Shown piece by piece: positions 2,390-30,414 of a DNA stretch of 64,000 nucleotides. This stretch comes from Actinophytocola algeriensis (lineage in GTDB: Bacteria > Actinomycetota > Actinomycetes > Mycobacteriales > Pseudonocardiaceae), in NCBI RefSeq assembly GCF_014203735.1, contig NZ_JACHJQ010000003.1:977326-1041325 (forward strand). Direction: 5' to 3'. Below the pieces are notes generated by a model. That model saw nothing but the letters and a program-made list of their open reading frames with translations, was not told where the DNA came from and did no database searches. The stretch's first letter is position 1. Each line of letters opens with the position of its first letter. A program made the position numbers and the translations under genes.

Positions 2390-2468
2390 CTTGCCAGCTT
2401 ACCGGTAGGTACCGACGGGGAGGGTGATGTTGATCTTGCCTGTGGATAACCGGGTGGGCTGTGGACAA
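2390..2468. repeat. Partial copy of the paired DnaA-box intergenic element
   Basis: The gap 2129-2502 (374 bp) has no convincing gene. It holds two DnaA-box-like 9-mers on the minus strand, TGTGGATAA at 2441-2449 and TGTGGACAA at 2460-2468, exactly 19 bp apart. About 25 bp before them is a degenerate arm (CTTACCGGTAGGTACCGAC, 2399-2417) that resembles the arms of the complete copies. No right arm is present; the PrsW gene starts 34 bp later. Confidence 0.7.
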
Positions 2469-2502
2469 CCTGCACGAAGTGGTCAGGCTTTAGGGTGACC
2501 CC

Positions 2503-3657
2503 GTGCACCCTGCCCGGCCGCCGCATCGGCACACACCGCGTCGGCGAACCGTCCTTCTGCCGGTCACCGGGCTGGTCGTGCTCGCCGCCTGCGGGCTCAC
2601 GCTCCTCGCGCTATCCACGGCCCGCGTCGGCCTCGTCGCGGAACTGGTCGGGATCGTCGCCGCGCTCGTGCCCGTCGGGTCGATCGTGGCCGCCCTGCTC
2701 TGGATCGACCGCTGGGAGCCCGAACCCGCGCGCATGCTCTGGCTCGCGTTCGGGTGGGGCGCCAGCGTCGCCGCGATCACGGCACTGCTCGTCAACAACA
2801 CCGCCGCCGCGGTCGGGGACGCGCTTCTCGGGCACGGCAGCGGCGACAAGGTCAGCGCCATCGTCTCCGCGCCGCTCTTCGAGGAAGGCCTCAAAGGCGT
2901 CTTCGTCCTCGGGATCATGTACTTCCTGCGCGACGAGTTCGACGGGGTCATCGACGGCGTCGTCTACGCGGGCTTCGTCGCCGCCGGGTTCGCCTTCACC
3001 GAGAACATCTACTACTTCGGCCGCGCCTTCGCCGACCACGGGTTCGGCGACCCCGGCACCGGCGGCGTCGTCACCGCGTTCATCCTGCGCGGGGTCCTGT
3101 CGCCGTTCACCCACCCGCTCTTCACCGCCATGATCGGGATCGGCATCGGCATCGCCGTGCGCACCTCGAGCCGCTGGCTGCGCGTCGTGGCGCCGCTGGC
3201 CGGTTACCTCGTCGCGGTCCTGCTGCACGCGCTCTGGAACGCCGCCGCCACGCTCGGCACCCCGCAGACCTTCCTCAACGTGTACTTCCTCGTCATGGTG
3301 CCGATCTTCATCTCGGGCGTCTTCCTCGTCAGCTGGCACCGCCGCCGCGAGCAGCGGATCGTCGCCAGGGCGCTGCCCGCGATGGTGGACCGCGGCTGGG
3401 TCGACCCGGCCAACGTGAAGCGGCTCGTCACGCTCACCGCCCGCCGCAACTGGCGGGTCCGGGCCGGGCGCAAGCAGGGCAGAACCGCCTCCCGCGCGGT
3501 CGGCGCCTACCAGGCCGCGGTCACCGAGCTGGCGTTCCTGTGGCACGCCGTCCACCTCGGGCTCGCGGGCCACGACGCCCCAGAGCGTGAGGCGCGCCTC
3601 GTCACGGTGCTGCACGCCGCCAAGGCCGACCTGCCCGCCAGAACCCCGTCGCGGTGA
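2503..3657 (+). CDS. PrsW family intramembrane metalloprotease
   Basis: This 384-residue polytopic membrane protein belongs to the PrsW (CAAX-protease-like) family. Members cleave substrates, such as anti-sigma factors, within the membrane. Family motifs are clear: FEEGLKG (EExxK) at about residues 126-132, then DGVIDGVVYAGFVAAGFAF followed by ENIYYF, and a conserved H near LLHALWN. About eight hydrophobic segments are visible, and the C-terminal 100 residues are basic and cytoplasmic. The start is GTG at 2503. The gene follows a paired DnaA-box element and precedes the DUF2520/pantothenate cluster. The substrate is unknown; there is no neighbouring anti-sigma gene. Confidence 0.88.
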   Translation: MHPARPPHRHTPRRRTVLLPVTGLVVLAACGLTLLALSTARVGLVAELVGIVAALVPVGSIVAALLWIDRWEPEPARMLWLAFGWGASVAAITALLVNNTAAAVGDALLGHGSGDKVSAIVSAPLFEEGLKGVFVLGIMYFLRDEFDGVIDGVVYAGFVAAGFAFTENIYYFGRAFADHGFGDPGTGGVVTAFILRGVLSPFTHPLFTAMIGIGIGIAVRTSSRWLRVVAPLAGYLVAVLLHALWNAAATLGTPQTFLNVYFLVMVPIFISGVFLVSWHRRREQRIVARALPAMVDRGWVDPANVKRLVTLTARRNWRVRAGRKQGRTASRAVGAYQAAVTELAFLWHAVHLGLAGHDAPEREARLVTVLHAAKADLPARTPSR

Positions 3658-3694
3658 AGTTACGCTTCCGTCGGGAGATGTTCAGGGAGGCGGT

Positions 3695-4597
3695 ATGAAC
3701 CGGCCCGCGCGCCTTGCCGTCGGGGTGGTCTCCACCGGACGCGTCGGGGCGGTGCTCGGTGCGGCCCTCGCACGCGCCGGTCACTCGGTCGTCGCCGCCT
3801 CCGGGGTCTCCCGCGAATCCGTCCAGCGCGCAGAGGACCTGCTGCCCGGCGTCCCGCTGCTCGCCCCCGACGACGTCGTCCGCGCCGCTGACCTGGTGCT
3901 CCTCGCCCTGCCCGACGACGCGCTGCCCGGCATGGTCCGCGGGCTCGCCGCCGCCGACGCGCTGCGGCCGGGCCAGATCGTCGTCCACACCTGCGGCGCG
4001 CACGGCGTCGACGTCCTCGCCCCCGCGCAGGAACACGGCGCACTGCCGCTCGCGTTGCACCCGGTGATGACGTTCACCGGCCGCGCCGAGGACCTCGAAC
4101 GCCTCGCGACCTGCTGTTTCGGAGTCACCGCCGTCGACTCCGACGAGGCGGCGTGGAGCGTCGGCGAGGCACTCGTGATGGAGATGGGCGCCGAGCCGGT
4201 CCGCATCTCCGACTCGGACCGCCCGCTGTACCACACCGCACTGGCCCACGGCGCGAACCACCTGGTCACGCTGGTCGCGGAGGCCGCCGACCTGCTGCGC
4301 GGCACCGGCGTCGACAACCCAGACCGGATGCTCGGCCCGCTGCTGTCCGCCGCGCTCGACAACGCGCTGCGCCACGGCGACCGCGCGCTCACCGGTCCCG
4401 TCGCCCGCGGTGACGCGGGCACCGTCCGAGCCCACCTGCGGGTCCTGGCCGAGAACGCCCCCGACATGCTGCCCGCGTACCGCGCGCTCGCCGAGCGGAC
4501 CGCGGAACGCGCAGAGCAGAGCGGGCTCCTGCGCCCGGACCTGGCCCCCGACGTCTTCGCCGCGCTCCGGCCCGGCACTGGAGAGGATCGCCGATGA
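3695..4597 (+). CDS. Rossmann-like and DUF2520 domain protein (Rv3603c-like)
   Basis: The 300-residue protein has an N-terminal NAD(P)-type Rossmann fold (GVVSTGRVGAVLGAALARAG, about residues 10-29) and a C-terminal all-helical DUF2520 domain, as in 6-phosphogluconate dehydrogenase/ketopantoate reductase-like proteins. It always neighbours panC-panD in actinobacteria. A role in pantothenate synthesis, possibly as ketopantoate reductase, has been suggested for the family but cannot be shown from sequence. The start is ATG at 3695, with AGGGAGGCGG just upstream; an upstream in-frame extension runs into the PrsW gene and lacks family features. It overlaps panC by 4 bp (ATGA), indicating translational coupling. 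Confidence 0.85.
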   Translation: MNRPARLAVGVVSTGRVGAVLGAALARAGHSVVAASGVSRESVQRAEDLLPGVPLLAPDDVVRAADLVLLALPDDALPGMVRGLAAADALRPGQIVVHTCGAHGVDVLAPAQEHGALPLALHPVMTFTGRAEDLERLATCCFGVTAVDSDEAAWSVGEALVMEMGAEPVRISDSDRPLYHTALAHGANHLVTLVAEAADLLRGTGVDNPDRMLGPLLSAALDNALRHGDRALTGPVARGDAGTVRAHLRVLAENAPDMLPAYRALAERTAERAEQSGLLRPDLAPDVFAALRPGTGEDRR

Positions 4598-5469
4598 CGC
4601 CGAGGTTCACCCCCGGCCAGCTCCACGTCCACAGTGGACTCGACGACATGGTGGCGACCGCGCGCGCGTTGCGTGCCGTCGGCCGCAAGATCGCGCTGGT
4701 GCCGACCATGGGCGCGCTGCACGACGGGCACCGGCAGCTCATGCGCACCGCGCGCAGGCTGCCGGGCACCGTGCTCGCCGCGTCGATCTTCGTCAACCCG
4801 CTGCAGTTCGGGCCCGACGAGGACTACGACCGCTACCCCCGCCCACTCGAGGCCGACCTGAAGATCTGCGGGGAAGAACGCGTCGAGCTGGCGTTCACGC
4901 CGTCCCGCGAGCAGATGTACCCGGGCGGCCCGGAGATCATGGTCGACCCCGGTCCGCTCGGCGGTGAGCTGGAGGGCGCGTCCCGGCCAGGTCACTTCGC
5001 CGGTGTGCTGACTGTGGTGACCAAGCTGTTCACGATCATCCAGCCGCACTACGCGGTGTTCGGGGAGAAGGACTACCAGCAGCTGACGCTCGTCAGGAAG
5101 CTGGTCCGCGACCTCAACCTCGACGTGAAGGTCATCGGCGTGCCGATCGTGCGGGACCCCGACGGGCTCGCCCGCTCCTCCCGCAACGCCTACCTGTCCG
5201 ACGAGCAGCGCACGGCCGCGATCACGCTGTCGGCCGCGCTCGTCGCGGGTGCCCGGGTCAGCGCGGGCGGCGCGGCGGTCGTGCTGGAGTCCGCGCGCGC
5301 GGTGCTCGACAAGGAGCCGTCCGTGGCGGTCGACTACCTGGAGCTGCGTGGCGCCGACCTCGGTCCGGCGCCGGAGCACGGGGAGGCCCGGCTGCTGGTG
5401 GCGGCGCGGGTCGGCTCGACGCGGCTCATCGACAACAGCCAGGTGTTCCTTGGTCAGGGGGAGGACTGA
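4594..5469 (+). CDS. panC: Pantothenate synthetase
   Basis: PanC condenses pantoate and beta-alanine, using ATP, to make pantothenate in the cytosol. At 291 residues it has the usual length. The nucleotidyltransferase motif [10 protein letters not shown] (HIGH-like) is at about residues 34-43. [29 protein letters not shown] and the ATP-loop region SSRNAYLS follow in order. The start overlaps the DUF2520 gene by 4 bp, and panD follows 1 bp after the stop, so the three are co-transcribed and probably translationally coupled. Confidence 0.97.
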
Positions 5470-5470
5470 C

Positions 5471-5932
5471 ATGTTCCGCACGATGCTGAAGTCCAAGATT
5501 CACCGGGCGACCGTGACGCAGGCCGACCTGCACTACGTGGGCTCGGTGACCGTCGACCAGGACCTCATGGAAGCCGCCGACCTGCTGGCCGGCGAGCAGG
5601 TGACGATCGTCGACGTCACCAACGGCGCCCGCCTCGAGACGTACGTGATCACCGGCGAGCGGGGCAGCGGTGTCATCGGCATCAACGGCGCGGCCGCGCA
5701 CCTCGTGCACCCCGGCGACGTCGTGATCCTGATCGCCTACGGCCTGATGGACAACGCGGAGGCCGCCGCCCACCGCCCGCGCGTGGTGTTCGTCGACGAG
5801 ACCAACGCGATCGTCGACAAGGGATCGGTGCCAGGGCACGTGCCGGACGGGCACGGCCTGGTCAGCGGTGCCGTGCCGGCGGAGACGGCCGAGGCGGCGA
5901 TGCTCGACGCGCTGCTCCAGTCGGAGAGCTGA
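5471..5932 (+). CDS. panD: Aspartate 1-decarboxylase proenzyme
   Basis: PanD makes beta-alanine from aspartate for pantothenate synthesis. The proenzyme cleaves itself at Gly-Ser to generate an N-terminal pyruvoyl group; the site is visible as HYVGSVT at about residues 21-27 (cleavage before Ser25). [20 protein letters not shown] and the conserved [12 protein letters not shown] segment are typical. The product is 153 residues; the last 20 or so (after DKGSVPGH) are an actinobacterial-style tail beyond the core of about 127. ATG 5471 lies 1 bp after the panC stop; upstream in-frame codons belong to panC territory. Confidence 0.96.
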
Positions 5933-5936
5933 CCCG

Positions 5937-6713
5937 GTGCTGCTCGCGATCGACGTCGGCAACACCAACATCGCGCTGGGCCTGTACGCGGGCACGGAAC
6001 TGGTCCGCGACTGGCGGATGCGCACCGACCCGCAGATGACCGCCGACGAGCTGGCGTTGATCATGCACGGCCTGCTCGGCGAGCACGCGTCAGGGGTCAC
6101 CGGCGTCTCGGCGCTGTCGACCGTGCCCGCCGTGCTGCGTGAGCTGCGGGTCATGCTCGGCCGCTACTACCGCGCGGTGCCGCGCGTGATCGTCGAACCG
6201 GGCGTGAAGACCGGCGTGCCGCTGCTCGTCGACAACCCGAAGGAGGTCGGCGCCGACCGCGTGATCAACACCCTCGCCGCCCACCACCTGCACGAGACGA
6301 CGTGCGTGGTCGTCGACTTCGGCACGTCCACCAACATCGACGTGATCTCCGCGCGCGGCGAGTTCCTCGGCGGCGTGTTCGCGCCCGGCATCGAGATCTC
6401 CGTGGACGCGCTCGCGTCCAGGGCCGCCGCGCTGCGCAAGGTGGAGCTGGTCCGCCCGAAGTCGGTGATCGGCAAGAACACCGTGGAATGCCTGCAGTCC
6501 GGCATCATGTACGGCTTCACCGCCCAGGTCGACGGCCTGGTGCGCCGCATCGTCGACGAGCTCCACCGCACCGCCCACCCCGGCGAGGTCACGGTCATGG
6601 CGACCGGTGGCCTCGCTCCGCTGGTGGTCGACGAGTCCGAGACGATCACCGACCACCGCCCCGACCTGACGCTGCTCGGGCTGCGCCTGGTCTTCGAACG
6701 GAACACGAGGTGA
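5937..6713 (+). CDS. coaX: Type III pantothenate kinase
   Basis: CoaX phosphorylates pantothenate, the first step of CoA synthesis. The start is GTG at 5937, 4 bp after panD, and the 258-residue product begins VLLAIDVGNTNIALGLY, the family's N-terminal phosphate-binding motif. Further motifs are GADRVINTLAA (about residues 104-114), VVDFGTSTNIDVI (about 123-135) and the GG(V)FAPGIEIS segment, all typical of the ASKHA-fold type III kinase, which needs a monovalent cation. The gene completes a pantothenate-to-CoA cluster and overlaps the acetyltransferase gene by 4 bp (GTGA). Confidence 0.96.
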   Translation: MLLAIDVGNTNIALGLYAGTELVRDWRMRTDPQMTADELALIMHGLLGEHASGVTGVSALSTVPAVLRELRVMLGRYYRAVPRVIVEPGVKTGVPLLVDNPKEVGADRVINTLAAHHLHETTCVVVDFGTSTNIDVISARGEFLGGVFAPGIEISVDALASRAAALRKVELVRPKSVIGKNTVECLQSGIMYGFTAQVDGLVRRIVDELHRTAHPGEVTVMATGGLAPLVVDESETITDHRPDLTLLGLRLVFERNTR

Positions 6714-7198
6714 CCGTGGACATCCGTCCGGCCGGCGACGCCGACGACGCAGTGCTGCTGGAGATCGACTTCGCGACGTGGACGCAGGCCGTGTCCCCGG
6801 CACCGGCGCCGACCAGGGAGGACCGCACGTCGTTCTTCGACGACCGCACCGACCGCGAGAACTACCTGGTCGCCGAGGCCGACGGCCGGGTCCTGGGGTA
6901 CGTGCTGGTGCACCAGAACATCCCGCTGCCGTCACACCAGCACGTGCTCGGCATCAACGGGCTGGCGGTCGACCCGTCCGCGCAGGGCCGAGGGGTCGGC
7001 CGGGCGCTGGTCGAGGCGGCGGTGGCGGAGGCGGCCCGGCGTGGCGCGTCGAAGGTGGCGCTGCGGGTGCTGGGCGAGAACCCGGGCGCGCGGCGGCTGT
7101 ACGAGCGCTGCGGGTTCGTCGTCGAGGGCGTGCTGCGCGGCGAGTTCGTGATGGACGGGAAGCTCGTCGACGACGTGCTCATGGCGCGATACCTCTGA
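6710..7198 (+). CDS. GNAT family N-acetyltransferase
   Basis: The 162-residue protein has a single GNAT fold. Motif A, the acetyl-CoA pyrophosphate loop, is VDPSAQGRGVGRALVEAAV (about residues 85-103), followed by NPGARRLYERCGFVVEG (motif B). The substrate cannot be deduced. GTG 6710 overlaps the coaX stop by 4 bp; a second GTG at 6716 is possible. It sits where Rv3599c sits in M. tuberculosis, but whether it is the orthologue is uncertain. It converges on the methyltransferase gene with a 16-bp gap and no obvious terminator. Confidence 0.88.
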   Translation: MTVDIRPAGDADDAVLLEIDFATWTQAVSPAPAPTREDRTSFFDDRTDRENYLVAEADGRVLGYVLVHQNIPLPSHQHVLGINGLAVDPSAQGRGVGRALVEAAVAEAARRGASKVALRVLGENPGARRLYERCGFVVEGVLRGEFVMDGKLVDDVLMARYL

Positions 7199-7214
7199 CC
7201 CCGGCGGCCGAGCC

Positions 7215-7940
7215 TCAGACCCGCCTCGCGCGTACCACCTTCGTCACCAGCGGTGCGTCGAACTCACCACTCGCCGTCTCGGGCCGCGATGACAGGTACG
7301 CCCGGATCCGCCCCAGCACCGCGTCCCGCTCGGCAACCGGGATCACGATCATCCGCGAGTGCGTGCTCAGCGTCTCCGCCAGCGAGTCGCTCGTCCGCCG
7401 CTGCACGTGCGGGAACATCGCCACCTCGGGCTCGCTGAACAACGCGTGCGTCGGCATCGAGGTCCGCTCCGGCGCGGAGATCCCCGCCGTCGTCCCCGCC
7501 AACGCCATCAGCCCGGCCATCCACTCGACGCTCGTGTCCTCCGCGTTCCACAGCAGCCCGACCGCTCCGCCCGGCCGCAGCACCCGCCCGATCTCGTCCA
7601 GCGCCGCGGCCTGGTCGAACCAGTGGAACGCCTGCCCGACGAGCACCGCGTCGACGGAACCCGAGGCCAGCGGGATCTCCTCCGCCGCGCCAGGAAGCGC
7701 CGCCACCTGCGGAAACCGGCGCGACAGCTCGGCGCGCATCGCGTCGTCCGGCTCCACCGCGGTCACGGACAGGCCCAACGCCAATAGCCCTGACGTGAGC
7801 TTCCCGGTACCCGCCGCGAGGTCCAGCACCGGACCGGTCACGCCGCCGAGTGCCCAGCGGATGCCGTCCGCCGGGTAGTCCGGCCGGTGCTCGGCGTAGT
7901 CGCCCGCGAGTGATCCGAAGGAACGCGCCCGGTCCGCCAT
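7215..7940 (-). CDS. Class I SAM-dependent methyltransferase
   Basis: This 241-residue protein has a methyltransferase-11/25 type fold: motif [13 protein letters not shown] (about residues 38-49), the acidic loop [13 protein letters not shown], and the post-motif [13 protein letters not shown]. The substrate is unknown; small-molecule methyltransferases of this class are common in actinomycetes. ATG at 7940 is chosen; an in-frame TTG at 7949 is less likely. Its start lies 45 bp from the divergent lysS start, so the two share a promoter region. It is not part of the conserved lysS-lsr2-clpC order and appears to be a lineage-specific insertion. Confidence 0.85.
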
Positions 7941-7985
7941 GGCACCCAAACTAACCGGTTAACACACGCATTACTCTGTTCTACC

Positions 7986-9488
7986 GTGACCGACGAAACG
8001 CAGGTACCGCAGTCCGACGACCTTCCTGAGCAGCTTCGGGTCCGTCGGGAGAAGCGGGCCCGGCTGCTTGCCGACGGCGTGGATCCATATCCAGTCGAGC
8101 TGCCGCGCACCCACGACCTGCGACAGATTCGTGAGACATATTCGGACCTCGCGCCCGACACCGCGACCGGAGATGTGGTGGGCGTCACTGGCCGGGTCAT
8201 CTTTCTGCGCAATACGGGCAAGCTGTGTTTCGCGACACTGCAAGCGGGTGACGGCACCGAACTGCAGGCGATGCTGAGCCTGAACAAGGTCGGTGCGGAC
8301 GCACTTTCCGACTGGAAGAGCACCGCCGACATCGGTGATCACGTTTTCGTCCGCGGCGAGGTAATCACCTCCCGCCGGGGCGAGCTGTCCGTTCTCGCCG
8401 ACGAGTGGCGAATGGCCGCCAAGTCGCTGCGGCCCCTGCCGGTGGCGCACAAGGACCTGAACGAGGAAACCCGGATTCGGCAGCGGTATGTCGATCTGAT
8501 CCTGCGCCCGCAGGCCCGCGAAACGGTACGCACCCGCGCGGGGGTGGTCCGCGCATTGCGCGACAGTTTCCACGGGCGCGGATTCATCGAGGTCGAGACG
8601 CCGATGCTCCAGACGCAGCACGGCGGTGCCACCGCACGGCCATTCGTCACCCGCTCGAACGCGATGAGCATGGACCTGTACCTGCGCATCGCGCCGGAGC
8701 TGTTCCTGAAGCGCTGCGTGGTCGGCGGTATCGACCGGGTCTTCGAGATCAACCGCAACTTCCGCAACGAGGGCAGCGATTCGACGCATTCCCCCGAGTT
8801 CGCGATGCTCGAGTTCTACGCGGCCTACGAGACCTACGACTCGATGGCCGTGCTGACCCGCGAGCTCATCCAGGAGTCCGCGCAGGCAGCGCTCGGTACG
8901 CAGGTCGTCACGCTCGCGAGCGGCGAGGAGTACGACCTGTCCGGCGAATGGACCAGCCTGTCGATGTACCCGTCGCTGTCCGACGCGCTGGGCTCGGAGG
9001 TCACCCCGGAAACGCCCGCCGAGCTGCTGCACAAGCACGCGGAGCGCCTCGAGCTGGAGGTCGACCCGAAACTCGGCCACGGCAAGATGGTCGAGGAGCT
9101 GTGGGAGCACCTGGTCGGCGACCAGCTGTACGCGCCAACGTTCGTGCGGGATTTCCCGGTCGAGACCTCCCCGCTCACCCGGCAGCACCGCAGTATCGAC
9201 GGTGTCGCCGAAAAATGGGATCTCTACGTCCGGGGATTCGAGCTCGCCACCGGATACTCCGAGCTCGTCGACCCCGTGGTGGAACGCGAGCGCTTGACCG
9301 AACAGGCCGGTCTGCGGGCGGGTGGAGACGACGAGGCGATGCGTCTCGACGAGGACTTCCTGCGTGCGCTGGAGTACGGAATGCCCCCCAGCGGCGGCGT
9401 CGGAATGGGTATCGACCGGTTGCTGATGGCTCTCACCGGTCTCGGCATACGGGAGACGATCCTGTTTCCGCTGGTGCGCCCAGAATGA
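7986..9488 (+). CDS. lysS: Lysine--tRNA ligase, class II
   Basis: LysS charges tRNA-Lys. At 500 residues it has full length: an N-terminal OB-fold anticodon-binding domain (about residues 50-160, [20 protein letters not shown]), then the class II core. Motif 2 is [11 protein letters not shown] followed by HSPEF (about 258-275), and motif 3 is [11 protein letters not shown] near the C-terminus. The GTG start at 7986 has no strong Shine-Dalgarno and may be leaderless. The gene is followed by lsr2 and clpC in the conserved actinobacterial order, although lsr2 has its own upstream inverted repeat. Confidence 0.97.
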
Positions 9489-9507
9489 GCAACTTGCGGC
9501 TCGGGAA

Positions 9508-12261: not shown

Positions 12262-12420
12262 GCCTCCGGCCCCCGGATTCCACGCTACCGGCGAGCACCG
12301 ACGGGCCCGGCTCACCGGACCGGGCGCTGTGGACAACCTGGAGAGCTGTGGACAACCGCCGCGCAGCCGCGCCGCACTGTCGGTGCCGTGCCGTAGCGTG
12401 GTTCGAGGGGGCCGGAGGCC
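12262..12420. repeat. Complete paired DnaA-box element (copy A)
   Basis: Left arm 12262-12304 (GCCTCCGGCCCCCGG through CACCGAC) and right arm 12376-12420 (ACTGTCGGTGCC through GGGGGCCGGAGGCC) are imperfect inverted repeats. Between them lie TGTGGACAA at 12328-12336 and 12347-12355, 19 bp apart. The arms sit 1 bp after the stop of the ArsR-like gene and 5 bp from the stop of the convergent gene. The element therefore fills the whole convergent gap and may also terminate transcription. Confidence 0.85.
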
Positions 12421-16659: not shown

Positions 16660-16755
16660 TTGTCCACAGCCGAGCCGGTTATCCACAGGTCTGCCCACAG
16701 CCCACCGTGACTGTCGGTGCCGCCCCGTAAGCTGGATTCCCGGGGGCCGGAGGCC
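16660..16755. repeat. Partial paired DnaA-box element (copy B)
   Basis: TTGTCCACA at 16660-16668 and TTATCCACA at 16679-16687 are 19 bp apart, followed by the right arm 16710-16755 (ACTGTCGGTGCC through GGGGGCCGGAGGCC). A left arm is absent; the clpC terminator occupies that place. Confidence 0.83.
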
Positions 16756-16832: not shown

Positions 16833-17002
16833 GGCCTCCGGCCCCCTCGAACCACGCTACGCGATGGCACCGACACAACCGGCCGCGCCAACGTTCCGTA
16901 ACCCGGGTTATCCACAGCCGACACGGTTGTCCACAGGCGCCCTGGGGACAACTCCGGAGTGTCGCCCACCGCCGTTACGCTGGATTCCGGGGGCCGGAGG
17001 CC
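16833..17002. repeat. Complete paired DnaA-box element (copy C)
   Basis: Left arm 16833-16875 (GGCCTCCGGCCCCC through CACCGACA), boxes TTATCCACA at 16908-16916 and TTGTCCACA at 16927-16935 (19 bp apart), then right arm about 16958-17002 ending GGGGGCCGGAGGCC. With copy B it fills nearly the whole 480-bp gap between clpC and the next gene; I see no gene in that gap. Confidence 0.83.
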
Positions 17003-18307: not shown

Positions 18308-18402
18308 GGCCGTCGGCCCCCCGAAATCCAGCGTAGCGGGGAGGGGCGACAGTTTCCGCGCGTTCCGCGGTCGCTGTGGACAACTCAGGTCGCTGTGGAC
18401 AA
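18308..18402. repeat. Partial paired DnaA-box element (copy D)
   Basis: Left arm about 18308-18353 (GGCCGTCGGCCCCCCG through GCGACAGT), then TGTGGACAA at 18375-18383 and 18394-18402, 19 bp apart. No right arm is recognisable before the convergent peptidase gene ends at 18539. Confidence 0.8.
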
Positions 18403-18538
18403 CCAGCACGGCCGCTGCTGTGTCCACCAACGTTTGCCGGTCCTTCGGACACCGCCAGAGCCGCAAAAGGCGCGCGCGGGGCGTGAGCCCCACACCACTC
18501 CCGAGGCTGCCTGCCATCCCAGAGATGGGGACACAGCA

Positions 18539-22734: not shown

Positions 22735-23610
22735 TCAGTGCTCTCCGGGTAACGCGAACAAGCCGTCGGTGGTCTGTTCGACCAGCCCGTCCACCAGCAG
22801 CGAGTCGAGACATCTGTCCCGCTGCCCGGCGTCGGACCAGACGACGTCCAGTCGTGTCTTGGGGACCGGGGTCGAGGTGTCCCGCAGGACGTCCAGCAGC
22901 AGACCGCGCACCTGGCGGTCCGTGCCCGCGAACTTCTGCACGGGCTTCGCGGGGCCGGCGTAGGCCGGTTTCCCGGCGAGCTGCCACGCGCACGAGTCGT
23001 ACACCGGGCAGTCGGCGCAGCGCGGGTTCCGTGCCGTGCACACGATCGCGCCCAGCTCCATCAACGCGGCCGACATCCGCGCGGCCTGCTCGTCGTCGGC
23101 GGGCAGCAGCTTCTCCGCGTCGGCCATGTCGCGCGTGTTCGAGGCGGGCCCCGCATCGCCCGCGCCGTGCACCGCGCGGGCGATGACCCGCCGCACGTTG
23201 GTGTCCACGACCGGGCAGCGCTTGCGGTACGCGAACGCGGCGACCGCACGCGCGGTGTAGGCACCGATGCCCGGCAGCGCCAGCAGGGTGTCCACATCGG
23301 ACGGGACGACGTCGTCGTGCTGCTCCGCGATCACCGTCGCGGCGTCCCGCAGCCGCAGCGCGCGGCGCGGGTAGCCGAGCTTGCCCCACATCCGGAGCAC
23401 GTCGGCCGGGGTGGCGGCGGCGAGCGCGGACGGGACCGGCCAGCGCGCCAGCCACTCGTGCCACGACGGTTCGACGCGGGCGACCGGGGTCTGCTGCAGC
23501 ATGATCTCGCTGACCAGCACGCCCCACGCCGAGCAGTCGGGCCTGCGCCATGGCAGGTCCCGTGCCTTCTCGGCGAACCAGTCGGTCAGCACGTACGCGT
23601 CGATGGTCAT
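22735..23610 (-). CDS. mutY: A/G-specific adenine glycosylase
   Basis: MutY removes adenine mispaired with 8-oxoguanine. The 291-residue protein has the helix-hairpin-helix LPGIGAYTARAVAAFA (about residues 112-127) and the catalytic Asp in CPVVDTNVRRV. The [4Fe-4S] loop is C-x6-C-x2-C-x5-C (CTARNPRCADCPVYDSC, about 191-207). The catalytic Glu region is VLVSEIMLQQTPVARV. The C-terminal recognition domain is short, as in actinobacteria. The neighbouring carbonic anhydrase gene repeats the M. tuberculosis canB-mutY neighbourhood, although here both are on the same strand. Confidence 0.95.
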   Translation of the reverse strand: MTIDAYVLTDWFAEKARDLPWRRPDCSAWGVLVSEIMLQQTPVARVEPSWHEWLARWPVPSALAAATPADVLRMWGKLGYPRRALRLRDAATVIAEQHDDVVPSDVDTLLALPGIGAYTARAVAAFAYRKRCPVVDTNVRRVIARAVHGAGDAGPASNTRDMADAEKLLPADDEQAARMSAALMELGAIVCTARNPRCADCPVYDSCAWQLAGKPAYAGPAKPVQKFAGTDRQVRGLLLDVLRDTSTPVPKTRLDVVWSDAGQRDRCLDSLLVDGLVEQTTDGLFALPGEH

Positions 23611-23674
23611 CGCCGACCGATGCTAGCCCGGCACGGCGGCCCGCGCGCGGAGGGCGCGGCGCCGGGGGAGCCGG

Positions 23675-24166
23675 TCAGATGACCTCGGTCAGCTCCGCGT
23701 TGTGCACGTCGTAGACGAACCCGCGCACGTTGTCGCGGTGGGGCACGAACGGGCTGCGCCGCACCCGCTCCACCGACTGGCGGACGCTGTCCTTGACCTC
23801 GCGAAACGCCTCGATCGCCCACGGCGGCCGCAGCTTGGTCTCCTTTTCCAGCTCGTCCTTGAACTCGTCCTCGGTGATCAGCGACAGGCCGCACGACGTG
23901 TGCTGCATGACGATGACCTCGCGGGTCTCGAGTTTGCGCTGGCTGATCGCGAGCGACCGGATCACGTCGTCGGTCACCACACCGCCCGCGTTGCGCAGGA
24001 TGTGCACCTCGCCGTGCCGCAGGCCGAACACGTCGAACACCTTGATGCGCGCGTCCATGCAGGTCACGACGGCCAGGTGGAGTGATGGCACGGGTGTGGG
24101 GACCTCGGGCGCGCCGAGGTCCACGCCGGTCACGTGCCGGTGCAGGAGATCGTCGATAGCGGTCAT
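23675..24166 (-). CDS. Beta-class carbonic anhydrase
   Basis: The 163-residue cytosolic enzyme interconverts CO2 and bicarbonate. Beta-class zinc ligands are visible: Cys and Asp/Arg in VTCMDARIKV (about residues 33-42), then His and Cys in QHTSCG (about 88-93), with the conserved RNAGG in between. Its length equals short beta-CAs of the Rv3588c type. ATG 24166 is the start, with AGCTGACAG upstream. It diverges from the Rv3587c-like gene 203 bp away, the same head-to-head arrangement expected from the mycobacterial locus. Confidence 0.93.
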   Translation of the reverse strand: MTAIDDLLHRHVTGVDLGAPEVPTPVPSLHLAVVTCMDARIKVFDVFGLRHGEVHILRNAGGVVTDDVIRSLAISQRKLETREVIVMQHTSCGLSLITEDEFKDELEKETKLRPPWAIEAFREVKDSVRQSVERVRRSPFVPHRDNVRGFVYDVHNAELTEVI

Positions 24167-24369
24167 CTGTCAGCTCCCGTGTTTCGCCGTGCCCACATTG
24201 CGGTCAAGCACTGGAAACCTGCTCGATCACCAATTGGAGCAAGGTGGCGGCCCGAGGGCAACGTGTCGTCGACAACAACTCTCCGTGGTCACTACCTGCA
24301 CAAATATCCCCCTTTCGAGGCCAGGGAAGATCCAAGCGCACGCGATAGTGCGGGGTTACCGTCAGGCGC

Positions 24370-25134
24370 ATGATCGAACCGAACGGCCCGTTGCCCCGGT
24401 CCGTGTACCGGCGCCGTCGCGCGTTCGCGGCCGGTGTTTCGGTGCTGGCCGTGGTGCTGCTGGCGTGGCTCATCGGCGGTCTCGTCGAGGCGGACGACCA
24501 GCACCCGGTGCAGGGCACGGCGAACACGGCGGACCTCGGTGGACCCGCGGCGGCCGGCTCCGTGCGGGCCACGTCGGACCGGGCGTCCGCGCCCCCGTCG
24601 AGCCCGGGCCCGGACGACCCACAAGGTTCGGTCACCGCCGGCCCCAGCCGCACCGGGCCGACGTCCGGTGCGAGCAAGCCCGCGCCGCCCGCCCCGGTCG
24701 TCACGACCACGACGACCACCCCGGCGCCGCCGCCCGGCCCGCCCAAGGCGTGCCCCGACGCGGTGATGAAGGTCGCGGCCGCGCCGGACGTGCCGTCGTA
24801 CGCGGTCGGCACACGGCCGTTGCTGCGGCTGCGGATCGTCAACGCGGGCCCGGTCCCGTGCACGCGCGACGTGAACCGCGGGCTGCGGGAGATCCTCGTG
24901 ATGGGCGCCGACGGCGCGCGGCTGTGGTCGAGCAACGACTGCTACGGGCCGCCGGAGGCCGACGTGCGCGTGCTGGCGCCGAACCAGCCGGTGGAGTTCT
25001 CGGTCAACTGGGCCGGGCGGACGTCCGAGCCCGGTTGCCCGCTGGACCGCAGGACCGTGCCTGCCGGTACGTACCAGGTGGTCGGCAAGCTGGGCGCGCT
25101 GGCAGGCGCACCGACGCAGCTGGTGCTGACGTAG
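24370..25134 (+). CDS. Membrane-anchored protein with extracytoplasmic DUF4232-like domain (Rv3587c position)
   Basis: The 254-residue protein has a basic N-terminus, one transmembrane helix (about residues 22-40), a Pro/Thr/Ser-rich linker (about 65-125, including a run of threonines) and a folded outer domain of about 130 residues with three or four Cys. The position next to the carbonic anhydrase gene equals Rv3587c. The outer domain (VKVAAAPDVPSY-type start, LRLRIVNAGPVPC) looks like an immunoglobulin-like beta fold; the function is unknown. In M. tuberculosis disA and radA flank it, but here a LacI regulator follows. Confidence 0.8.
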   Translation: MIEPNGPLPRSVYRRRRAFAAGVSVLAVVLLAWLIGGLVEADDQHPVQGTANTADLGGPAAAGSVRATSDRASAPPSSPGPDDPQGSVTAGPSRTGPTSGASKPAPPAPVVTTTTTTPAPPPGPPKACPDAVMKVAAAPDVPSYAVGTRPLLRLRIVNAGPVPCTRDVNRGLREILVMGADGARLWSSNDCYGPPEADVRVLAPNQPVEFSVNWAGRTSEPGCPLDRRTVPAGTYQVVGKLGALAGAPTQLVLT

Positions 25135-25162
25135 CCGAGCCTTCGTGCCGCCGCGATGTCCT

Positions 25163-25205
25163 GAAAGACGCCTTCGGGGCGTTGAGTGCCCCGAAAGCGT
25201 CTTTC
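25163..25205. terminator. Bidirectional intrinsic terminator
   Basis: An 18-bp stem (25163-25180 with 25188-25205, one mismatch) beginning GAAAGACGCC around a 7-nt loop lies between two convergent genes. The A/T pairs at the base give a short T-run in both directions. Confidence 0.93.
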
Positions 25206-25228
25206 GAGAGATCAGCCGTGGCGCCCGG

Positions 25229-26329
25229 TCACGGGCCGAACCAGCGTTCCTCCGTGGTCCTCGGCGGTGCGCTCGTGGTGCCGACGACCAGTTCGGTGTC
25301 CAGCGTGATGTGCCGGGGCTTGCTGTGCTCCGCCGAGGCGAGCAGCAGCTTCCCGGCCGCGCGGCCCTTCTCCAGCACCGGCTGCCGGATCGTCGTCAGG
25401 CCGACCCGCTCCGCCTCGACGATCCCGTCGAAACCGGTCACCGTCAGGTCCTGCGGCACCCGCAGCCCACGCCGCTTCGCCTCGTTCAGCGCGCCGAGCG
25501 CCAGGATGTCCGACGTGCAGATGAGGGCCGTGACCTCGGGGCTCGCGTCCAGGAGCTGCGCGGCCGCCGACTCGCCGCTCCCGATGGAGTGGTCGAAGCG
25601 CTCCACGACCGGCACCCGTGCCCAGTCCACGCCCGCCGTCTCGAACGACTCGGCCAGCGCGGTGAGCCGGGCCCGCTGCACGTGGAAGTGCGCGGTCCGC
25701 TGCCGCGCGATCGCCGCGAAGCCGTCGTTGCGGTCGCGTGCCAGCCGCATGCACAGCACCCCGATGTTCCGGTGCCCGATGCTGATCAGCCGCCCCGCCA
25801 GCTGCGCGATCGCCGCGTGGTCGTCGATGCCGACCAGGTCGACGCCCTCCACCCGCGGCTGGTCGCACACCACGGTCGGCACCGGGCGCGACAGCACCGC
25901 GGCCAGGTGGGGGTCGTCGTCCGGTACGGAGTAGACGACGAAACCGTCCACACCAGCACTGTGGACGGCGGTGACGTCGTCGCGCTCCGGGTTCACCGGC
26001 ACCAGGTGGAGGCCCTGGCCGGCGCCTTCACAGGCCAGCGCCAGCCCCTCCAGGAAGCCGAGCGCCGCCGGGTCACGGAACGCGTACGAAAGGTTCTCGG
26101 TCAACAGGAGCCCGACCGCGCCCGCTTTGCGCGTGCGCAACGATCGCGCCACCGGGTCCGGGCCGGGATAGCCCAGACGTCGCGCCGTCTCCAACACGCG
26201 TCTGCGCAGCTCCGGCGAGAGCTGGTCAGGCCGGTTGTAGGCGTTGGACACGGTGGTTCGCGAAACGCCGAGCTCCGCCGCCAGCGACGCCAGTGTCGCC
26301 GGCCGCCGAACATGCATAGGCCTCGCCAT
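25229..26329 (-). CDS. LacI family transcriptional regulator
   Basis: The 366-residue regulator has an N-terminal LacI helix-turn-helix (LASLAAELGVSRTTVSNAYN, about residues 12-31) with hinge helix. A periplasmic-binding-like sensor domain (about 65-345) follows, with GFVVYSVPDDD, GIDDHAAIAQL and VTGFDGIVEAERVGLTTIRQP in the family order. The ligand is probably a sugar or nucleoside but is not identifiable; no sugar operon adjoins. ATG 26329 is chosen, with ATG 26317 as an alternative. It diverges from the zinc-importer operon; its operator is not evident. Confidence 0.9.
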   Translation of the reverse strand: MARPMHVRRPATLASLAAELGVSRTTVSNAYNRPDQLSPELRRRVLETARRLGYPGPDPVARSLRTRKAGAVGLLLTENLSYAFRDPAALGFLEGLALACEGAGQGLHLVPVNPERDDVTAVHSAGVDGFVVYSVPDDDPHLAAVLSRPVPTVVCDQPRVEGVDLVGIDDHAAIAQLAGRLISIGHRNIGVLCMRLARDRNDGFAAIARQRTAHFHVQRARLTALAESFETAGVDWARVPVVERFDHSIGSGESAAAQLLDASPEVTALICTSDILALGALNEAKRRGLRVPQDLTVTGFDGIVEAERVGLTTIRQPVLEKGRAAGKLLLASAEHSKPRHITLDTELVVGTTSAPPRTTEERWFGP

Positions 26330-26463
26330 GTGCTGACCGTAACGGTTCAGAAGCACAATCAGAAGCCTGGCCACGCACGTCACCTTCACCACATCTGGTG
26401 GCACTTCTCACCTGGTCGGCTGACGCGCCCGGAATTTCCAGTCGTATAGTCGACTTGCAGTAG

Positions 26464-26482
26464 TCGAAAACGGTTTCCATTA
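26464..26482. promoter_or_regulatory. Candidate Zur operator of the metal-importer operon
   Basis: TCGAAAACGGTTTCCATTA is an AT-rich imperfect palindrome (GAAAAC/GTTTCC) 40 bp upstream of the binding-protein gene and resembles actinobacterial Zur sites of the TGAAAATNATTTTCA type. No Zur gene lies in the window. Confidence 0.5.
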
Positions 26483-26521
26483 CCTATAGCGTGACACGCA
26501 TGAATACTTCGGAGGAACGCC

Positions 26522-27397
26522 ATGAGAAGCGCCCTTCCACTCGCGGTCGCCGCGGTCGCCGTCCTCGGCGCCGCCGGCTGCGGCGGTGGCACGACTGACG
26601 CGGCGGCGGACGGGAAGGTCGCGGTCGTCGCGTCCACGAACGTGTGGGGCAGCGTCGTCCAGGCGGTCGGCGGTGACGATGTGAGCGTTCGCTCCCTGAT
26701 CAACGACTCGAAGGGCGACCCGCATTCCTACGCGGACAAGCCCGAGGACGCGACCCTGCTCACCGAGGCGAAGCTCGTCGTCTACAACGGCGGCGGCTAC
26801 GACGACTTCTTCACCAAGCTGGTGGACGCGGCAGGCGCGGACGCGAAGCAGGTCGTCGCGTACGACGTCGCCGGTCTCGCCGAGGGTGAGAACGAGCACG
26901 TCTGGTACGACTTCGCGACCGTCAAGAAGGTGGCGGGCAAGGTCGCCGAGGAGCTGGGCGCCATCGACCCGGACAACAAGGACACCTACGCGGACAACGC
27001 GAAGGCGTTCGACGGCAAGATCGACGAGCTGACCACGAAGGCCGGCGCCATCCCGGACGGCGACGTCGTCGCGACCGAGCCCGTCGCCAAGTACCTGCTC
27101 GACGCCGCCGGCCTGACCGACGTGACGCCGCCGGACTTCTCCGAGGCCATCGAGGAGGAGACCGACCCGCCGGTCGCGACGGTCGCCGACACCATGGACC
27201 TGGTGACCGGCAAGCAGATCGTCGCGCTGGTCAACAACGACCAGACCGAGACGAACGTGACCGACCAGCTCAACGGCGCGGCGAAGAGCGCCGGGGTACC
27301 GATCGTGAACGTGAGTGAGACGTTGCCACCGGGCGTGACCGACTACGTTGAGTGGATGACCAAGCAGGTGGACGCGCTGGCGGGCGCGGTGGCTTGA
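26522..27397 (+). CDS. Zinc/manganese ABC transporter substrate-binding lipoprotein
   Basis: The 291-residue cluster 9 (ZnuA/TroA-like) binding protein has a lipobox LGAAGC (Cys at about residue 20). Probable metal ligands are His in GDPHSYAD (about 63), His in NEHVWYD (about 125), Glu and a C-terminal Asp region. No long His-rich loop is present, which slightly favours an AztC/manganese-type or low-His zinc protein over classical ZnuA. GGAGG precedes ATG 26522. The next two genes overlap it by 3 bp and each other by 1 bp, forming one importer operon under the candidate Zur site. Confidence 0.92.
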   Translation: MRSALPLAVAAVAVLGAAGCGGGTTDAAADGKVAVVASTNVWGSVVQAVGGDDVSVRSLINDSKGDPHSYADKPEDATLLTEAKLVVYNGGGYDDFFTKLVDAAGADAKQVVAYDVAGLAEGENEHVWYDFATVKKVAGKVAEELGAIDPDNKDTYADNAKAFDGKIDELTTKAGAIPDGDVVATEPVAKYLLDAAGLTDVTPPDFSEAIEEETDPPVATVADTMDLVTGKQIVALVNNDQTETNVTDQLNGAAKSAGVPIVNVSETLPPGVTDYVEWMTKQVDALAGAVA

Positions 27398-28212
27398 TGG
27401 ACGGACACGTACCCGCGATCTCGCTCCGGGACGCGACGCTCGGCTACGGCGACCGGATCCTGTGGTCCGGCCTGAACCTCGACATCGAGCCGGGGGAGTT
27501 CGTCACGGTGCTGGGCCCGAACGGGTCCGGCAAGACGAGCCTGCTCCGCGTGCTGCTCGGGTTGCAGGCGCTGTCGTCGGGCACCGCGCGGATCGCGGGC
27601 GAGTCGCCGGGGCGCGGCAACAAGCGGATCGGGTACGTCCCGCAGCAGCGGGCCATCGACGCCCCCGTCCGCGGCCGCGACCTGGTCGGCCTCGGCCTGG
27701 ACGGACACCGCTGGGGCACCGGCGTTTCCCGGATCCGCGAGCGGCGGCAGCGGGTCGACCAGGCCATCGCCGAGGTGGGTGCGGAGGCGTTCGCGAAGGC
27801 GCCGGTGGCGCTGCTGTCCGGCGGTGAACAGCAGCGCCTGCGGGTGGCGCAGGCACTGGTGAGCGACCCGGACGTGCTGCTGTGCGACGAGCCGCTGCTG
27901 TCCCTCGACCTCGCGAACCAGCAGGTGGTCAGCTCGCTGATCGACCAGCGCCGCCGCGTCGCGAACACCGCCGTGCTGTTCGTGACCCACGAGATCAACC
28001 CGGTGCTGTCGCTGGTCGACCGCGTGCTGTACCTCGTGGACGGTCGCTTCCGGATCGGCAGGCCGGACGAGGTGATGAACTCCGAGACGCTGTCCGAGCT
28101 GTACCGCACGAAGATCGACGTGGTGCGGGTGCGGGGCCAGATCCACGTGGTCGGCGCGCAGAGCGGGCTGTGCGAGGACCAGACACACCACCTGCACGAG
28201 GAACGCGCCTGA
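27397..28212 (+). CDS. Metal ABC transporter ATP-binding protein
   Basis: The 271-residue ATPase of the zinc/manganese importer has Walker A GPNGSGKTS (about residues 47-55), Q-loop YVPQQRA, signature LSGGEQQRLRVAQAL (about 144-158), Walker B VLLCDEPLLSLD and H-loop FVTHEINP. It energises uptake by driving the membrane component. ATG 27397 overlaps the binding-protein stop (TGATG), and its own stop overlaps the permease start, so translation is coupled across the operon. The short C-terminal extension after VRVRGQIHVVG is His-containing (QTHHLHEE) and could sense metal, but this is inference. Confidence 0.94.
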   Translation: MDGHVPAISLRDATLGYGDRILWSGLNLDIEPGEFVTVLGPNGSGKTSLLRVLLGLQALSSGTARIAGESPGRGNKRIGYVPQQRAIDAPVRGRDLVGLGLDGHRWGTGVSRIRERRQRVDQAIAEVGAEAFAKAPVALLSGGEQQRLRVAQALVSDPDVLLCDEPLLSLDLANQQVVSSLIDQRRRVANTAVLFVTHEINPVLSLVDRVLYLVDGRFRIGRPDEVMNSETLSELYRTKIDVVRVRGQIHVVGAQSGLCEDQTHHLHEERA

Positions 28213-29087
28213 TGGACAAGCTGTTCGACCTCGAGCTGCTGGGCAGGTTGCTGGGGCTGCCCTACGTGCAGGCCGCGCTGGTGGCGGCCGCCATCCTGGG
28301 GTTGCTGGCGGGAGTGCTGGGCCCGCTGATCGTGAGCAGGAACATGGCGTTCGCGGTGCACGGGACCAGCGAGCTGTCGTTCACGGGCGGTGCCGCGGCG
28401 CTGCTGCTGGGCATCCAGGTCGGTCACGGCGCGCTCGCGGGGGCGGTGATCGCGGCGCTGGTGCTGGGCCTGCTGTCGCGGCGCAGCTCCGACCACGACT
28501 CGGTGATCGGCGCGGTGCTGTCGTTCGGCCTCGGCCTCGGGGTGCTGCTGCTGTGGCTCTACCCCGGCCGCGCGAACAACAAGTTCGGCCTGCTGGTCGG
28601 CCAGGTCGTCGGCGTCAACTTCGCGTCGATCGCGCTGCTGTCGGCGTGCGGCATCGCTGTCATGCTGGTGCTGCTGGTGATCTACCGGCCGCTGCTGTTC
28701 GCGTCGGTGGACCCCGATGTGGCGAAAGCCCGCGGCGTTCCGGTCGGCGGGCTGTCCGTGGTGTTCGCGGTGCTCGTCGGTGTCGCGACGGCGCTGGGGG
28801 TGCAGACGGTCGGTGCGCTGCTGGTGCTGGCGCTGATGATCACCCCCGCCGCGGCGGCCGCCAAGGTGACGGCGAGCCCGCTGCGCGCGACGGTGCTGGC
28901 GGTGGTGTTCGCGGAGGCGGCGGCGCTGGGCGGGTTCATCCTGTCGCTGGCGCCGGGTGCGCCGGTGAGCGCTTTCGTGACCGCGATCTCGTTCCTGATC
29001 TACCTGGTGTGCTGGACGATCAGCCGCGCGCGGGGCCGGTCGACGCGCGGGGCGTCGGTGGTCGCGGTGCCGATGCCCGCGCGGTGA
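28212..29087 (+). CDS. Metal ABC transporter permease
   Basis: The 291-residue integral membrane subunit of the ABC-3 family (ZnuB/MntB/AztB) has about eight or nine transmembrane helices. The family signature around VLVGVATALGVQTVGALLVL and ALMITPAAAA (about residues 190-220) is clear. SRNMAFAVHGTSELSFTGGA near residue 40 is typical of the conserved cytoplasmic loop region. ATG 28212 overlaps the ATPase stop. The operon ends here; a short convergent gap separates it from the DUF6236 gene. Confidence 0.94.
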   Translation: MDKLFDLELLGRLLGLPYVQAALVAAAILGLLAGVLGPLIVSRNMAFAVHGTSELSFTGGAAALLLGIQVGHGALAGAVIAALVLGLLSRRSSDHDSVIGAVLSFGLGLGVLLLWLYPGRANNKFGLLVGQVVGVNFASIALLSACGIAVMLVLLVIYRPLLFASVDPDVAKARGVPVGGLSVVFAVLVGVATALGVQTVGALLVLALMITPAAAAAKVTASPLRATVLAVVFAEAAALGGFILSLAPGAPVSAFVTAISFLIYLVCWTISRARGRSTRGASVVAVPMPAR

Positions 29088-29175
29088 CGAGGCCAGGGGC
29101 CTGAGATACCGGAGATACCGCCTCACTTCTCGCGGGAGATCGTCGCGCGGAGTCGGTCGGTCAGTTTCCGGGGTG

Positions 29176-30249
29176 TCAACGCCCGGTCGAGCCGAGGAGA
29201 TAGCCCGCCGGGCTGCGTTTCCTGACCCTCGCCTCCCGCCGCGCCGCGTGCGCGGTGCCGACGAAGTAGGCCGCGGCGGTACCGGCTCCCGCGATGACCG
29301 ACGGAAGTCCGGCGATGCCACTCGCGGCCGCCACCAGTGCCGGCGGCGTCAGCGTCTTGAGGCTGAGCAGTGCCTGGGCCGGTTGCAGACCCAGAGTCCG
29401 CAGTTCCCGGCGTAAATCCTTGACCGCCTGGTCGAGTTGGTCGTGCACCAGCATTTCGACCCGCGCCCGCATGACCTCCCCGTTGTCGATCGCGGCGATC
29501 TCCGTGAATTCCCGCGAAAGTGTGCCGAGGTGCGCGCGAAACGCGTCGAACTGCACGGCCAGTTCACGGCGCGCCTTGATGATCTTGTCGACCGGCACCT
29601 GCGCGAGATCCGCGGGCACGACGGTCTCGATCGCCGTCACGGAGTACGCCGACGCCACATCGCCGGTGGTCCGGACCGCGGGATGACCGTCGTCGAGGAG
29701 GTCCAGGACGAGGTCGGCCGCGTTGGTGACCGCCGCGTGTGCCGCCACCTGGTCGGTGACGAGCGACAGCTCATTGGCGTCGGCGACCCGGTGCATGAGG
29801 AGACTCGTGTAGGCGCTGGTGACGCGCGGGTGCAGGTCCAGCCAGGAAGGACCGGCGACGTCCCCGGGATCGCCGGCCAGGCCGCTTTCCAGCAGAGCTG
29901 TGCGCAGATCGCCGGACATCTGACTGTCCATGACGAAGCTGTTCCCGTCGAACGGCCCGCCATAACGGGCGCGGAGTGCGTCCTCGTGCCCATTGATCAG
30001 ACTCAGCAGTTCGGCGGAAGCGCCCGGCACATGAGGAGCCGGATCGACATCGACGAAGAAACCCAGCTCGTCCCGCAACGCGCGCCCGACCGGCCCTTCC
30101 CGGTAGTCGCCGGGGAGAAATCCCTCCGGGCGCAGGATCGCCAGCCTGGGCCAGTACAGAGCGCACGCCCGCAACCAGTCGGCACGCCGGACGAAGATGT
30201 ACGGGAAGTACAGCGGGATGGGACGCAGTCCGGCCGGGGTCGCCTCCAT
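29176..30249 (-). CDS. DUF6236 family protein
   Basis: The 357-residue cytosolic protein of unknown function begins with PIPLYFPYIFVRRADWL (about residues 10-26), the opening seen in DUF6236 proteins. The middle is helical, with a charged heptad-like region (about 210-300), and the C-terminus contains a hydrophobic Gly/Ala-rich segment (about 315-340) before a basic tail. A membrane-associating role is possible. ATG 30249 is used because longer frames run into a paired DnaA-box element. No operon partner is evident. Confidence 0.72.
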   Translation of the reverse strand: MEATPAGLRPIPLYFPYIFVRRADWLRACALYWPRLAILRPEGFLPGDYREGPVGRALRDELGFFVDVDPAPHVPGASAELLSLINGHEDALRARYGGPFDGNSFVMDSQMSGDLRTALLESGLAGDPGDVAGPSWLDLHPRVTSAYTSLLMHRVADANELSLVTDQVAAHAAVTNAADLVLDLLDDGHPAVRTTGDVASAYSVTAIETVVPADLAQVPVDKIIKARRELAVQFDAFRAHLGTLSREFTEIAAIDNGEVMRARVEMLVHDQLDQAVKDLRRELRTLGLQPAQALLSLKTLTPPALVAAASGIAGLPSVIAGAGTAAAYFVGTAHAARREARVRKRSPAGYLLGSTGR

Positions 30250-30265
30250 GGCTCGAACATAGCGT

Positions 30266-30414
30266 GGCCGCCGGCCCCCTCGAACCACGCTACGGCAAGG
30301 CACCGACAGTCAGCGCGAGTTGTCCACAGCTCCGGCGGTTGTCCACAGGGGAACGTTGACGCGGCCGGAACTGTCGGTCCCTTGCCATACGCTGGAAACC
30401 GGGGGCCGGAGGCC
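30266..30414. repeat. Complete paired DnaA-box element (copy F), best conserved
   Basis: This is the cleanest copy. Left arm 30266-30310 and right arm 30370-30414 are each 45 bp and inverted (GGCCGCCGGCCCCC inward to CACCGACAGT, and the mirror). Centrally, TTGTCCACA lies at 30320-30328 and 30339-30347, 19 bp apart. The right arm ends 1 bp before the stop codon of the aldo/keto reductase gene, and the left arm begins 17 bp upstream of the DUF6236 start. Confidence 0.88.

Follow-up and report, generated by a model that had tools for sequence, protein, structure and literature searches.

Paired TTRTCCACA boxes of Actinophytocola algeriensis as a probable operator of actinomycete competence and recombination genes, multiplied by promoter-bearing repeats

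DnaA boxes are clustered at oriC and at sites such as datA and DARS, and the repetitive extragenic palindromic (REP) sequences, bacterial interspersed mosaic elements (BIME) and miniature inverted-repeat transposable elements (MITE) are short repeats that occur in many copies. Here we report on a 64,000-nucleotide stretch of the genome of Actinophytocola algeriensis (assembly GCF_014203735.1, contig NZ_JACHJQ010000003.1, positions 977,326 to 1,041,325 of the forward strand; hereafter the window), in which the 9-mer TTRTCCACA is arranged in same-strand pairs between genes. We propose that the pair is probably the operator of the natural-competence and recombination regulon of actinomycetes, amplified by promoter-bearing repeats. 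In Bacillus subtilis, the ComK K-boxes are likewise two like boxes before DNA-uptake and recombination genes at discrete helical-turn spacings, with separations of 8, 18 or 31 bp (PubMed Central article PMC3536758, in excerpt, as are all articles cited here). The K-box reads AAAA-N5-TTTT, whereas the box here reads YYGTCCACAG and its spacing is mostly fixed within a lineage. In mycobacteria, a DNA-damage promoter has the consensus tTGTCRgtg, 8 nt, TannnT (PafBC/RecA-NDp), with ClgR also given as a reader of the motif (PMC5656591), and PafBC is described as an activator (PMC6789036, PMC11804915). The tad genes are required for transformation in Micrococcus luteus (PMC4322843). The control of competence in Actinomycetota is presented as little known, and in a 2026 study the signals that act upstream of M. 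luteus competence, like its regulatory nodes, are described as still to be identified (PMC12849477). A literature search among open-licence PubMed Central papers found no description of the operator in the results listed.

The window contains 12 copies of TTRTCCACA where 0.27 are expected (100 shuffles gave at most 3), and all 12 belong to six same-strand pairs, each at 19-bp spacing. The original prediction had placed these pairs between genes at 2441, 12328, 16660, 16908, 18375 and 30320; an exact pattern search returns the same six, none lies inside a frame predicted by a crude gene finder, and the count stays at six when up to three mismatches are allowed. Across the whole genome, 9.73 Mb in 23 contigs, exact 19-bp pairs number 102 (55 forward, 47 reverse). 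The reversed pattern gives none and base composition predicts about 0.00005; the enrichment that the original prediction had proposed to look for is present. At any spacing of 16-33 bp the total is 108, of which 102 are at exactly 19 bp. The surroundings were read for 100 of the 102 pairs, and of these 13 lie inside frames of the crude gene finder. The 9-mer itself occurs 369 times versus 40 in the reversed control, well away from the background frequency that would have spoken against a paired element. The earlier statement that no copy stands unpaired is right for the window and does not extend to the genome, where about 167 of the 369 copies lie outside exact 19-bp pairs. The pairs are very unevenly spread over the unordered contigs (100 of 102 pairs; chi-square p ~7e-17). 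We note that contig C3 carries 29 of these 100, C9 14 and C5 one, and that C2, C10 and C12 have none among the pairs listed.

What the pair may do is most readily seen in relatives that carry few copies. It is present in 6 of 6 genomes of the genus, including this one, with 9 to 102 copies, and the family as a whole has it in 77 of 120 genomes, which represent 34 of 44 genera; there the copy number is mostly 1-14, with one genome at 25 and four at 38-102. In low-copy relatives the pair often stands directly before a gene and is oriented toward it. Profile searches named the downstream genes as ComEA, Ssd/CpaE (TIGR03815, Tad pilus), YraN, SSB, RecA, RadA, DUF4192 and M23 peptidase; a CpaB-like SAF protein matched its profile below the CpaB cut-off, and AbiEi-like proteins had no profile match above cut-off. 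We counted ten such families around non-repeat pairs, that is, pairs found by pattern, unlike the repeat types A and B described below, and with surroundings that were read (returned loci together with places chosen from lists). Among the non-repeat pairs of other genomes, 49 of 101 have one of the ten families within 1.1 kb downstream; in the window's genome 9 of 20 do. On the opposite side, reading away from the pair, the families occur at 0 of 101 and 0 of 20, respectively, and downstream of A/B-like copies in other genomes at 1 of 29. In five fully read low-copy genomes, 21 of 33 pairs precede one of the ten families (G411, 6/7; G620, 3/8; G431, 7/12; G484, 2/3; G456, 3/3); the genes behind the pairs of G411 are ssd, cpaB, ssb, comEA, M23 and yraN. 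Low-copy relatives often have the pair as a directional promoter element whose box 2 stands 60-61 bp before the start codon of a competence or repair gene, and about half of the non-repeat pairs lie upstream of DNA-uptake or recombination genes in the same orientation and a fixed register.

The association is not limited to the family. In the class, 118 genomes have an Ssd match, 90 of them above cut-off, and we read 70 ssd upstream regions, all over the cut-off and none from the family of A. algeriensis (30 were loci returned by the search, and another 40 were chosen from the remainder). With the full box and at most two mismatches per pair, a tandem pair lies on the gene strand in 33 of 70 regions, compared with 1 for the antisense strand and 0 each for the reversed and complemented patterns; with the core TCCACA alone the figures are 42 of 70 and 1, 0 and 0. 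At comEA, for which the loci are the best 30 of 114 genomes, one of them lacking upstream DNA, the core pair is found on the gene strand in 11 of 30 and in none of the three controls (9 of 28 when A. algeriensis and G574, both in the query alignment, are left aside). Within the class, 134 of 345 genomes and 49 of 115 genera have the exact two-box pattern at spacings of 16-33 bp, and none of the genomes tabulated has a match to the reversed pattern. The class-wide box motif is YYGTCCACAG. Beyond the family the spacings cluster at 18-20, 27-30 and 33 bp, with few at 22-26, and are specific to lineages: genera g304 and g317, of one family, have 29 bp in 42 of 43 cases among the matches listed, and g319 of the same family has 31-33.

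A start codon lies 59-62 bp past box 2 at 57 of 133 non-repeat pairs, where other 4-bp windows average 10.6%. By spacing, this register holds for 9 of 11 pairs at 18 bp, 37 of 76 at 19 bp, 7 of 13 at 29 bp and 2 of 7 at 33 bp. Box 2 is thus the fixed point, and box 1 shifts by about one helical turn. Two further loci groups were seen alongside. At L281 (minus strand, offset 1500) a 29-bp pair and TGTCGGTG-N8-TAGGTT stand at the same register before a gene that we take to be DUF222/HNH-like, and a separate cluster of TCCACA boxes with 21-bp pair spacing, in one family (L290-L303), is followed in several loci by what is presumably an inositol phosphate synthase gene.

A number of observations count against reading the pair as a competence operator. 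No core pair is found in 28 of 70 ssd and 19 of 30 comEA regions (one of the latter without upstream DNA), and 43 of 120 family genomes lack the exact pair. The TTG-only 19-bp form occurs in only 2 of 396 genomes of the phylum, this one included. None of the 11 pairs of the 21-bp cluster is anchored to a start codon, and for spacings of 27 bp or more the commonest start-codon offset is 52 (8/27) rather than 60 (6/27); in several of these pairs the offset-52 codon is a GTG inside a -10-like GTGG. Of the non-repeat pairs in other genomes, 52 of 101 have no ten-family gene behind them; they include pairs before Uma2-like, Tex-like and unnamed genes and the 21-bp cluster. Of the 49 family-positive pairs, 7 precede the AbiEi-like proteins, which have no profile match above cut-off. 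None of the 80 A/B-like copies of the window's own genome has a ten-family gene downstream. Finally, the ten families (29 proteins) were picked after the loci had been read and mostly drawn from them, so that it is the opposite-side control, and not the choice of families, that carries the weight.

We nonetheless consider the competence operator the probable explanation, on the basis of the pair statistics, gene association, orientation, anchoring, promoter motif matches and the presence or absence of pairs at orthologous sites. A putative transcription activator would bind the two tandem same-strand YYGTCCACAG boxes on roughly the same face of the helix, with box 2 fixed some 60 bp ahead of a start codon that is often leaderless, and box 1 lying a further 18-20 or 27-33 bp upstream, depending on lineage. 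Bound about 50-80 bp upstream of the start, the activator would recruit RNA polymerase to the -10 element, for which many comEA genes have a TAGCGT-like sequence. Its input would join the PafBC/RecA-NDp DNA-damage promoter at recA, at radA and in the type A repeats, and in the window's genome the whole operator-promoter module would have been multiplied as short dispersed repeats of types A and B. The binding of a protein, activation, the firing of repeats during competence and the route of multiplication are the parts of this proposal that we infer.

The best-known reader of the box is DnaA. TTGTCCACA is the high-affinity DnaA box of Streptomyces coelicolor and Mycobacterium tuberculosis (PMC4285127), the boxes of the family are TTRTCCACA, the oriC side of the A. 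algeriensis genome carries the same 9-mer, the genome has one DnaA match, and the pairs agree with the DnaA-box consensus of titration and reactivation sites. DnaA could thus be the binder and couple replication state to competence and repair genes, with the repeats titrating DnaA or acting on its nucleotide state like datA or DARS. Judged from the sequences we regard this as rather doubtful. As a binder DnaA is compatible with the competence operator, and the two readings overlap. As to the main role, the original prediction had offered DnaA titration, an effect on its nucleotide state or a mark on the nucleoid; the pairs, unlike the DnaA-box clusters with which they share the 9-mer, are promoter-anchored, directional and placed at genes, in a window without dnaA, and this placement at a fixed start-codon distance in relatives indicates transcription rather than titration. 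Its exclusion of oriC stands: dnaA is on the same contig but about 530 kb from the window, and the pairs have no oriC-type position beside dnaA/dnaN. The box letters also argue against DnaA. Class-wide, position 2 is C in 43, T in 52 and G in 5 of 100 core-selected box copies. The oriC-side boxes come from the 9 of 19 contig starts in which dnaA was located, together with the own locus. Of those with at most one mismatch, a cut that itself favours T, 42 of 46 have T at this position; when oriC-side sites are selected by the core alone, non-boxes included, 30 of 50 have T and 13 have C. In G411, TTATCCACA is found in 9 of 14 operator boxes versus TTGTCCAC-N in 4 of 6 oriC-side boxes. The operator motif can be read as laxer at its first two positions than the oriC-side boxes, in a comparison that is small, biased and drawn from a different mix of species.

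In the window's genome most copies belong to repeats: 80 of the 100 own pairs read are A/B-like by pattern. Type A is palindromic, GGCC(T/G)CCGGCCCCC...CCACGCTACGG..CACCGACA, boxes, TGTCGGTG-N8-TAGCGTGG...GGGGGCCGGAGGCC, and consists of two divergent damage promoters flanking one pair, some copies having a single arm. Type B has one promoter and a G/C-rich, near-constant CAAGGCGGGACGCCCCCGGGACAGGGTGGGGG, with 51 genome copies by pattern; its distance to the start of box 1 is 81-82 bp for 40 of the 42 type B rows listed, and the remaining two are overlapping pairs of one four-box array. Of the window pairs, one is type B (2441), three are full type A (12328, 16908 and 30320) and two are half type A (16660 and 18375). 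Their parts are as follows.

2350..2403 (approximate bounds), minus strand: type B module, a -10-like TAAGCT followed by near-constant CAAGGCGGGACGCCCCCGGGaacGGGTGGGGG
2441..2468, minus strand: box pair, type B (box 1 2460-2468, box 2 2441-2449), from the pattern search
12262..12303, minus strand: type A right arm, CGTCGGTG-N8-TAGCGT and GGGGGCCGGAGGC, from the sequence
12328..12355, minus strand: box pair, type A, from the pattern search
12376..12420, plus strand: type A left arm, divergent promoter copy and GGGGGCCGGAGGCC stretch, from the sequence
16660..16687, plus strand: box pair, half type A with the right arm only, from the pattern search
16712..16755, plus strand: right arm, TGTCGGTG-N8-TAAGCT and GGGGGCCGGAGGCC, from the sequence
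16833..16875, minus strand: type A left arm, divergent promoter, from the sequence
16908..16935, plus strand: box pair, type A, from the pattern search
16960..17002, plus strand: right arm, TGTCGCCC-N8-TACGCT and GGGGGCCGGAGGCC, from the sequence
18308..18351, minus strand: right arm, TGTCGCCC-N8-TACGCT and GGGGGGCCGACGGCC, from the sequence
18375..18402, minus strand: box pair, half type A, within 260 bp between convergent stop codons
30266..30310, minus strand: type A left arm, divergent promoter, from the sequence
30320..30347, plus strand: box pair, type A, from the pattern search
30372..30414, plus strand: right arm, TGTCGGTC-N8-TACGCT and GGGGGCCGGAGGCC, from the sequence

The arms of type A bring in the DNA-damage promoter. 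Many type A arms carry the motif tTGTCRGTG-N8-TAnnnT, as do the recA and radA promoters. Scored irrespective of type, the right arms of 28 of 100 own pairs reach a PafBC motif score of 10-11 of 11, 25 of these at offset 51-52. The left arms of 41 of 100 do so as well; 37 of these have the motif at a distance of 22 or of 32-33, positions that differ by one turn of the helix. The shuffling control covers the right-arm window, for which none of 2000 mononucleotide shuffles gave such a score. One may then ask if the operator serves a DNA-damage regulon only, with the Tad and ComEA genes carried along and transformation not its purpose. In favour are recA, radA and ssb, the type A arms, and the PafBC-type -26 and -10 motifs, part of the hits having been preselected by TGTCGGTG. 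The motif is not, however, common to all pair-bearing genes: among the 37 gene-type 19-bp pairs, 28 lack a TA at PafBC spacing and only one scores 9 of 9, whereas all 37 keep the boxes, and the tandem boxes about 50-80 bp upstream do not belong to the published PafBC/RecA-NDp consensus. Together with the need for tad genes in M. luteus transformation (PMC4322843), this makes a purely damage-related purpose unlikely.

Type B was also considered as a structured RNA, and this was rejected. The RNAalifold consensus of 69 distinct copies, a few of them misfiled by pattern, has 3 pairs, one of which is C-G in 40 rows and G-C in 22; 25 type B copies from other genomes share a 5-pair CCCCC/GGGGG stem without compensatory change, and of 12 single copies folded against shuffles, ten gave z between -1 and +1 and two gave -2.0 and -3.9. 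Rfam at gathering thresholds gave 0 matches in 11 sources, the window included. At one locus (L143:450-1457) a type B module stands immediately before a frame, which we take to encode a RecB-like nuclease, and could act as its 5' leader. At another (L077:4001-4066), four tandem boxes at 19-bp steps precede a type B module, and it looks as if the operator unit itself can expand.

The repeats differ in presence between relatives. At the 18375 site, the 260 bp that separate the convergent stop codons in A. algeriensis compare with about 10-20 bp in G001, G002, G003 and G005, and in G004, the fifth relative, some 2.4 kb of other DNA occupy the site. Downstream of clpC, A. algeriensis has two pairs, G002 has one pair together with a further element that contains just one exact box, and no pairs were found in G001, G003 and G005 within the stretches read. 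Actinokineospora diospyrosa has its own amplified family: a search restricted to a pair plus TGTCGGTG returned 51 places, mostly with a different common downstream sequence, which indicates that another cargo was amplified under the same promoter. The motif-restricted search took 47 of its 52 pair-plus-TGTCGGTG stretches from this species. Between its loci and those of the window's genome there are only 5 matches, which cover 5,332 bases at a mean identity of 74.7%, and the repeat arms differ. In loci L084-L135 of A. diospyrosa, a third repeat family (GGCTGTGTATTTGGGGGCTTTCGATCAGGTTGATCTTGG) lies beneath the same operator-promoter, often as two tandem units.

Many similar copies at polymorphic insertion sites are what REP/BIME and MITE sequences show, and the shortness and the palindromic arms of type A are a further likeness. 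The repeats might accordingly be selfish, with boxes that are incidental or serve only their own mobility, as the original prediction had allowed, and the separate family in A. diospyrosa would fit this as well. They differ in carrying an operator and promoter shared with chromosomal genes, and the same pair stands in the same register at genes of low-copy genomes. Across the copies of A. algeriensis, the boxes, the spacing, the promoter register and the -10 persist while the letters between them vary, so that the boxes can hardly be incidental; the dispersed-repeat half of that suggestion holds. Purely selfish repeats thus seem to us a quite improbable account. Two side observations concern the surrounding DNA. 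A second dispersed repeat (window 18468-18525) adjoins the 18375 element, has at least 22 own-genome matches among the matches listed, and also occurs on contigs without listed box pairs. At 44001-48000 the G+C content of the window dips to 57.7%, against about 70% around it, and this stretch is perhaps foreign.

A wider picture, which we put forward tentatively and do not ourselves favour, is that one master competence operator is common to actinomycetes with lineage-specific spacings, and that repeats, selfish or regulatory, arose independently in several lineages and placed themselves under its control. Types A and B and the A. diospyrosa cargo would then be separate inventions, and some 40-100 noncoding promoters would fire, or soak up activator, at competence. 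For the probable competence operator itself, a conserved and positioned site before comEA, Tad pilus genes, ssb and recA provides a DNA bait with which to find the competence regulator, and it could serve to predict the transformability of individual actinomycetes. The amplified copies would act as natural decoys or as additional promoters, with an effect on competence that is open to measurement, and the operator offers a handle on how actinomycetes may control the uptake of foreign DNA.

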